Assembly (NCBI RefSeq): GCF_000092305.1
Contig: NC_014122.1
Coordinates: forward strand, 620,001 to 684,000
Direction: 5' to 3'
Length of the DNA: 64,000 nt
DNA from: Methanocaldococcus infernus ME
Lineage (GTDB): Archaea; AGJL01; Methanococci; Methanococcales; Methanocaldococcaceae
Made by a program: the position numbers and the translations under genes
The notes under the pieces: model-generated
The model's database searches: none
Seen by the model: the letters and a program-made list of their open reading frames with translations, nothing else
Told to the model about the DNA's origin: nothing
In this document: one piece after another, positions 7,543 through 61,274 of the stretch
Position numbering within the stretch: position 1 is the stretch's first letter
Layout: each line of letters opens with the position of its first letter

Positions 7543-7619
7543 TGGTGGGGCCGCCGGGACTTGAACCCGGGTCGCACGCCCCCCAAGCGCACAGGATAAC
7601 CAGGCTACCCCACGGCCCC
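7543..7619 (-). tRNA. tRNA-Pro(GGG)
   Basis: The minus strand folds as a full cloverleaf. The acceptor GGGGCCG pairs with CGGCCCC, the anticodon stem TGCGC/GCGTG encloses loop TTGGGGG (anticodon GGG), and the T arm is CCGGG-TTCAAGT-CCCGG. The 3' CCA is encoded. It lies between rpo10 and rpo6 on the same strand with no clear TATA box of its own, so it is probably processed from the ribosomal/RNA polymerase operon transcript. Confidence 0.95.
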
Positions 7620-60247: not shown

Positions 60248-60625
60248 ATGAACATAAACAAAGATAAAATTATAACTCCTGTTCTCATTGGTGGAGTTGT
60301 TGGAGGGATTTTAGGAGTTTTTTGCTGTTTAATGTATATTGTTGCTGGAGCCTTGGCAACATATTTATATAGTAAAGAGGAGTTTATAGAGTTGGAAAGT
60401 TCAGCTGTGGTTGGAGCCATTGCTGGTGTAATAGCTGGTGTTATTGAATTTATAATAAACTTCATCTTAAATATGGTTTTTCTAATTCATATGTCTAACA
60501 CTCCTCCAATGTTCTCAGGATTTTATAGTATTGCTTTAGCCATTGGGTTCATCTTTTCCATTATCTTTGGAGCCATCTTAGGGGCTATAGGAGGAGTTTT
60601 ATATCACTACATAGCTAATAGATAA
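60248..60625 (+). CDS. small glycine-rich membrane protein
   Basis: A 125-residue protein with three to four hydrophobic helices rich in Gly and Ala (VLIGGVVGGILGVFCCLMYIVAGAL; AVVGAIAGVIAGVIEFIINFIL; IALAIGFIFSIIFGAILGAIGGVLYHYI). It resembles small archaeal membrane proteins annotated DUF5518, though I am not certain of the family. Its TAA stop is immediately followed, with no gap, by the candidate H/ACA RNA. Confidence 0.65.
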   Translation: MNINKDKIITPVLIGGVVGGILGVFCCLMYIVAGALATYLYSKEEFIELESSAVVGAIAGVIAGVIEFIINFILNMVFLIHMSNTPPMFSGFYSIALAIGFIFSIIFGAILGAIGGVLYHYIANR

Positions 60626-60700
60626 TCCCCAGGGTGGGTTAGCCTCCCTGACTTGGCTCTGCTTAGGATGATGGGAGTGTGTTAATCCCTGGGGACATCA
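60626..60700 (+). ncRNA. candidate H/ACA guide RNA (structured, GC-rich)
   Basis: An isolated GC-rich stretch folds into one long stem-loop. The lower stem is CCCCAGGG (60627-60634) with CCCTGGGG (60687-60694), eight perfect pairs, and the triplet ACA follows at once (60695-60697). The internal loop has two unpaired nine-base strands (60635-60643 and 60678-60686), the expected guide pocket. The upper stem is CTCCC/GGGAG (60644-60648; 60673-60677). Above it TGA (60649-60651) faces ATGAT (60668-60672), resembling a kink-turn. This is the archaeal H/ACA layout for rRNA pseudouridylation. The pocket-to-ACA distance (17) is slightly above the usual 14-16. Confidence 0.7.
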
Positions 60701-60728: not shown

Positions 60729-61274
60729 TTGGAGATCTATTTTATTACAGGGAACATAAATAAGGTTAGGGAAGCTGAAACTATTTTAAAAGATATTAAG
60801 ATTAAGAATATAAAAATAGAGTATCCTGAACTTCAGGGAACCCTTGAAGAAGTTGCTGAGTTTGGAGCTAAGTACTGTTATGAAAGATTAAAAAAGCCTT
60901 TAATAGTTGAAGATAGCGGCTTTTTTGTTGAAGCCTTAAAAGGATTTCCTGGGACATACTCAAGGTTTGTTTATGAAACTATAGGAAATGAAGGGATATT
61001 AAAATTACTAAAAGGAGTAAGTGATAGGAGAGCTTACTTTAAATCTGTTATTGGCTACTGTGATGAAAATGGAGTTCAACTATTTTCAGGAGTAGTTAAA
61101 GGTTATGTATCCAGTGAAATAAGGGGAGATAAAGGATTTGGCTATGATCCTATCTTTATTCCAGAGGGTTATGATAAAACATTTGGAGAGCTTGGGATTG
61201 AGGAGAAGAGTAAAGTGTCCCACAGAAGGAAGGCTTTTGAGAAGTTAAGAGAGTTCTTACTAAAGAAAATTTAA
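60729..61274 (+). CDS. XTP/dITP pyrophosphatase (Ham1/RdgB family)
   Basis: The 181-residue housekeeping enzyme removes non-canonical purine triphosphates. Motifs are [15 protein letters not shown] at the N terminus, [50 protein letters not shown] and [14 protein letters not shown]. The start is TTG with AAGGGTGGGAAA directly upstream, which supports it. It begins 29 bases after the candidate guide RNA, in the same direction. Confidence 0.94.

Follow-up and report, generated by a model that had tools for sequence, protein, structure and literature searches.

In bacteria, the pseudouridine at position 1915 (E. coli numbering) of 23S rRNA is made by RluD. The same residue corresponds to Ψ2016 of Pyrococcus abyssi and Ψ1956 of haloarchaea, and Ψ2016 has been introduced in vitro by the RNAs Pab40 and Afu-4 (PMC2584109). 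Pab40, described also as HgcG or Pf7 and represented in Rfam by RF00064, is a three-hairpin RNA of ~270 nt. In PMC4652768, its third hairpin (Pa40.3) is assigned position L2016 and a related motif of M. jannaschii position L2015.

A short GC-rich hairpin in the 64,000-nt stretch of Methanocaldococcus infernus DNA analysed here (the window) belongs with Pa40.3. The reading in which we have high confidence is that of a free-standing box H/ACA guide RNA of ~71 nt, which as a ribonucleoprotein (RNP) would direct the conversion of 23S U2018 to pseudouridine, and which has a gene of its own, usually upstream of an ITPase gene. Once expressed, the RNA would assemble with Cbf5, Nop10, Gar1 and L7Ae, the last of these binding the kink-turn; the GGGUUA and GUUA strands would line the pocket and base-pair with the loop of 23S helix 69, where U2018 (E. 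coli 1915) would be made pseudouridine. Hairpin 3 of HgcG/Pab40 would here, as elsewhere in the genus, have become a separate gene, most often placed just before that of the ITPase.

Identification of the family

At the curated gathering scores, Rfam finds only tRNAs in the window and no match at the hairpin. When 241 bp around it were searched by E-value, the third hairpin of HgcG was matched (25.8 bits, E = 1.2e-5), and RF00064 run against the whole genome gave 38.1 bits at the hairpin (E = 2.7e-9). The covariance search proposed in the preliminary description is thus positive, for the hairpin 3 portion of the model only. The complete three-hairpin HgcG is not what is present: hairpin 3 alone matches, and 38.1 bits compare with a gathering score of 77, which is missed because only one of three hairpins is there. 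The RNA has the same guide cores, target and hairpin fold as HgcG hairpin 3 (Pa40.3). A second RF00064 match in the M. infernus genome proved to be the reverse strand of tRNA genes. Among the tRNAs of the window itself, a tRNA-Pro (GGG) at window positions 7543-7619 (minus strand) is recognized by ARAGORN but goes unlisted when the Rfam tRNA model is run at the gathering threshold.

Homologues were searched with the HgcG model and with a structure model built in this analysis; a DNA search with the 72-mer had returned only three relatives. They were found in 13 of 14 genomes of the genus and in 21 of 22 of the sister family, and were not found in G031 or in G004, an incomplete genome whose sole match is a different hairpin. 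All 30 loci collected carry GGGUUA in the 5′ strand, GUUA in the 3′ strand and ACA or AUA exactly 10 bases later; this guide/ANA pattern was also the means of locating them, and every HgcG-model locus of the genus or family fitted it, tRNA false matches aside. A sister-family sequence found later (G021) has GUUG in place of GUUA. Elsewhere in the genus, several Methanocaldococcus genomes share a second and different single hairpin, H/ACA-like and conserved (CCCCCUACGGCCCACGCUCUCGACGUGGC...GAUGAGAGAGGGUAGGAUAU...ACA; L110, L109, L108 and L104, i.e. G008:C1:986083-986151 and relatives, and also L191); it was not found in the M. infernus genome.

Architecture of the hairpin

The features of the RNA and of its surroundings are collected in Table 1.

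Table 1. Features of the guide RNA locus (window coordinates)
Feature	Position	Strand	Basis or remark
Box H/ACA guide RNA with a single motif, homologous to hairpin 3 of HgcG/Pab40	60627-60697	+	Rfam RF00064, homologues, covariation
Lower stem, 5′ arm	60627-60634	+	Pairs with 60687-60694; sequence and covariation
Lower stem, 3′ arm	60687-60694	+	Covariation
5′ guide strand GGGUUA	60636-60641	+	Invariant in 28 aligned homologues; pairs with 23S UAACCC just 3′ of U2018-A
Upper stem, 5′ arm	60642-60648	+	7 bp with 60673-60680, U60678 bulged; comparison with relatives
Kink-turn and apical loop, presumed L7Ae site	60649-60671	+	UGA 60649-60651, GAUGA 60667-60671
Upper stem, 3′ arm with bulged U60678	60673-60680	+	Comparison with relatives
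3′ guide strand GUUA(A)	60681-60685	+	GUUA invariant in 28 aligned homologues; pairs with 23S UAAC just 5′ of U2018
ACA box	60695-60697	+	Every aligned homologue has ACA or AUA
DUF5518 small membrane-protein gene, neighbour outside the RNA	60248-60625	+	Pfam PF17647, E = 4e-8
ITPase (Ham1) gene, conserved downstream neighbour	60729-61274	+	Pfam PF01725, E = 1e-53
TATA-like element TTTATATC, putative own promoter	60598-60605	+	Centred ~25 nt before the RNA, in the final DUF5518 codons

The elements first read from the single sequence are all in place, i.e. a lower stem of 8 bp followed by ACA, two 9-nt strands (60635-60643 and 60678-60686), an upper stem of 5 bp (60644-60648 with 60673-60677), and the UGA and GAUGA motifs. 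The hairpin is also, as had been noticed, a GC-rich island in AT-rich DNA, with a GC fraction of 0.57 as against 0.35 for the 64-kb window; 72-nt stretches at least as GC-rich occur at eight places in the window, five of which are tRNA genes. The idea of two 9-base unpaired strands holds for the letters and fails for the function, the guides proper being of 6 nt and 4-5 nt. Relatives show two more upper-stem pairs, G60642-U60680 and C60643-G60679, that flank U60678; this U is an insertion in the M. infernus upper stem and presumably bulged, and most relatives lack it and pair without a bulge. A ninth pair of the lower stem is replaced by U-U in M. infernus.

The GA of the first strand of the kink-turn and the AUG of the second are invariant in 28 sequences, and the UGA...GAUGA motif is the presumed, putative binding site of L7Ae. 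The ANA box stands directly 3′ of the lower stem, 14 nt from the G of GUUA, and in H/ACA RNAs the box lies ~14-16 nt from the upper edge of the pocket. The genome also encodes Cbf5 (G000:C1:600675-601628, 535.9 bits), and genes for Nop10, Gar1 and L7Ae would be expected by analogy with the M. jannaschii literature.

Folding and covariation

Folded by itself, the sequence is only mildly more stable than its shuffles (z -2.5), and the minimum free energy structure of the naked RNA pairs both guide strands with each other. Since single-sequence folding is only mildly unusual, the case rests on comparison. Among 13 homologues of the same stem length, 97.1% of the alignment cells that should pair do so, 12 of the 16 pairs have changed on both sides, and the covariation score is 0.48; not one of the three values was attained in 500 shuffles. 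Sliding the partners against each other lowered pairing to 37-65% and gave at most five pairs with double changes. In the lower helix, both sides have changed in seven of nine pairs among the homologues. This formal count was restricted to the 9-bp form of the lower stem, because a one-block alignment mis-registers that stem between its 9-bp and 10-bp forms. In a separate analysis of 30 homologues the register was picked in each sequence for maximal pairing and is thus biased towards pairing; the count on 13 homologues involved no such choice. One relative of the genus (L011) folds directly into the canonical form, with 9 bp, guide strands of 6 and 5 nt, and 7 bp.

Compensatory change, which the preliminary description had named as a check, is therefore present in both stems. 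Together with the independent Rfam match in the whole genome, the covariation argues that the hairpin is not a product of chance. Collectively, the homology to HgcG hairpin 3, the covariation, the kink-turn, the ANA box with its 14-nt spacing, the conserved rRNA target described below and the Cbf5 gene bear out the kind of RNA first proposed. On this comparative evidence, the hairpin is a genuine archaeal box H/ACA guide RNA of a known family, lying below the Rfam threshold.

Gene neighbourhood and transcription

The hairpin starts one base after the stop codon (60623-60625) of the upstream reading frame, as first described, and on the same strand. This is the argument for producing the RNA solely within the DUF5518 mRNA, from which it would then be cut out, and the preliminary description had accordingly seen a guide RNA joined to the tail of a membrane-protein gene. 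The neighbourhood in relatives does not support such a fusion. Of the 13 genus loci examined, only that of M. infernus has DUF5518 beside the RNA; in the other 12 it was not found there, and tRNA-Leu, other genes or non-coding DNA lie upstream. The upstream gene in G008 likewise differs from DUF5518. The conserved neighbour is downstream. In 12 of the 13 loci, 17-64 nt separate the RNA from the ITPase gene after it, which in M. infernus begins with TTG; the G002 locus lacks the ITPase gene.

The TATA-like element lies in M. infernus at the right distance for an independent start, and a similar sequence occurs at a similar distance in most relatives, despite their differing upstream genes. Because DUF5518 adjoins the RNA only here, the ITPase gene is the usual neighbour and a TATA-like box is present, transcription from an own promoter, or jointly with the ITPase gene, appears to be favoured over excision from the DUF5518 mRNA, and the latter is unlikely as the sole source of the RNA. 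The RNA probably has its own TATA promoter, which in M. infernus would overlap the final codons of a gene unrelated to it.

Probable target in 23S rRNA

The canonical guides (GGGUUA and GUUA) have a single perfect site in the 16S and 23S rRNAs of the genome, namely 23S U2018 in 5′-GUAAC-U2018-A-UAACCC. Any perfect site was obtained in 13 of 5000 trials with shuffled guides of the same composition. A scan of both rRNAs for a bipartite target had been suggested at the outset, and it yields one, with guide complementarity on both sides of U-N. The 6 + 4 bp with the 23S site are intact in M. infernus and in all 18 relatives in which hairpin and 23S rRNA were both read; this match reflects conservation rather than covariation, both sides being nearly constant. 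The 23S rRNA of Thermococcales carries the same site. U2018 was equated with E. coli 1915, in the loop of helix 69, by visual comparison with the known loop of E. coli. The 3′ guide-target duplex has only 4 bp, and the 5′ duplex has an energy of -6.4 kcal/mol, just beyond the -6.0 cut-off of PMC4652768, the two values having been computed by different programs. Taken together with the published assignments, this complementarity suggests that the RNA very probably directs formation of the near-universal pseudouridine at 23S U2018, the Ψ1915 of E. coli.

A different target follows if the 9-nt strands are taken at full length, as the preliminary description did, and the two basal pairs of the upper stem are opened. 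The 9 + 9-nt formula then leads to 16S U107 (G000:C1:898998), a striking match to the longer strands of the hairpin that is not kept in relatives, and the conserved fold leads to 23S U2018; the formula as proposed is not supported. That the RNA guides 16S U107, instead of or besides 23S U2018, is very improbable, although in M. infernus the pairing is good: the 16S sequence 5′-UAACACG-U-G-GCUAACCUA forms 9 + 7 bp with no mismatch and two G-U pairs, none of 5000 shuffled guides equalled it, and the extra U60678, absent in most relatives, forms a U-G pair adjoining the pocket. Against this, relatives show a mismatch with 16S rRNA directly beside the pocket, and complementarity is broken without compensation in three genomes whose 16S sequence has changed to GUCAACC (G014, G017 and G032). 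The Thermococcales 16S sequence, GUCGGUAACC, does not fit, though hairpin 3 of Thermococcales has the same guide cores. Moreover, this register would place the pocket 17 nt from ACA as against 14 in the homologues and requires two conserved stem pairs to open, and the target given for this RNA in the literature is in 23S rRNA. Very improbable, too, is a use of both registers, in which the conserved one would serve 23S U2018 and a longer one, aided by U60678, would serve 16S U107; were it true, one small RNP would modify both ribosomal subunits.

Probable splitting of the three-hairpin RNA

The homologous hairpin of the sister family and of Thermococcales closes a row of two or three neighbouring hairpins. 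When the 13 other genomes of the genus were searched with a model built on hairpin 1 of the sister family, each proved to have a separate locus for it (L201-L213, e.g. G008:C1:537593-537665), with weaker scores in G002 and G003, and in several of them a hairpin-2-like sequence visibly follows; in the M. infernus genome no hairpin 1 was found by this model. As judged from these loci, the multi-hairpin RNA is split in Methanocaldococcus, hairpins 1-2 being at one place and hairpin 3 alone at another. As the joined form is present in both the sister family and Thermococcales, we infer that it is ancestral. A stable GC-rich hairpin between two genes, with the ITPase gene next to it in 12 of 13 genus loci, could also be read as no guide RNA at all, being instead a DUF5518 terminator or a leader element that regulates the ITPase gene. 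This is extremely improbable: the guide strands are invariant and unpaired, a kink-turn and an ANA box are present, the homologues of the sister family and Thermococcales end multi-hairpin RNAs, and the locus of G002 has no ITPase gene.

The multi-hairpin HgcG-like RNAs of the sister family (L018, L020, L034 and others) reach up to ~290 nt and score ~20-48 bits, as against the gathering score of 77. Being well under this threshold, they are probably left unannotated by Rfam.

Comparison with known systems

The guide RNA reading of the hairpin adds no new principle: the kind of RNA and its target are already known, and for M. jannaschii a related motif has been published that shares this target. 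What is gained is a guide RNA, missed by the Rfam thresholds, in a small methanogen genome, which may account for a near-universal pseudouridine of helix 69, together with an example of a three-hairpin guide RNA broken into separate genes within one genus, of use for annotation and for the study of guide RNA evolution.

With hairpin 3 of HgcG/Pab40/Pf7 (RF00064; Pa40.3), the M. infernus RNA shares the guide cores, the kink-turn, the ANA box, the spacing and the 23S target (L2016 of P. abyssi). It differs in being one hairpin of ~71 nt instead of three in ~270 nt, and in staying below the Rfam gathering score. A further contrast is with RluD, a stand-alone enzyme that acts at the equivalent position without a guide RNA, unlike the H/ACA RNA of M. 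infernus. The same RNA occurs in G008 (C1:216280-216350), upstream of the ITPase gene and with no bulged U in its upper stem; we take this genome to be that of M. jannaschii and its RNA to be, presumably, the published motif. That motif, related to Pa40.3 and assigned L2015 in PMC4652768, has an equivalent target position. In Haloferax volcanii, Hvo2/HP2 (targets 1956 and 1958) is likewise an H/ACA hairpin assigned to the equivalent of E. coli 1915, and its hairpins have also become separated (PMC2584109).
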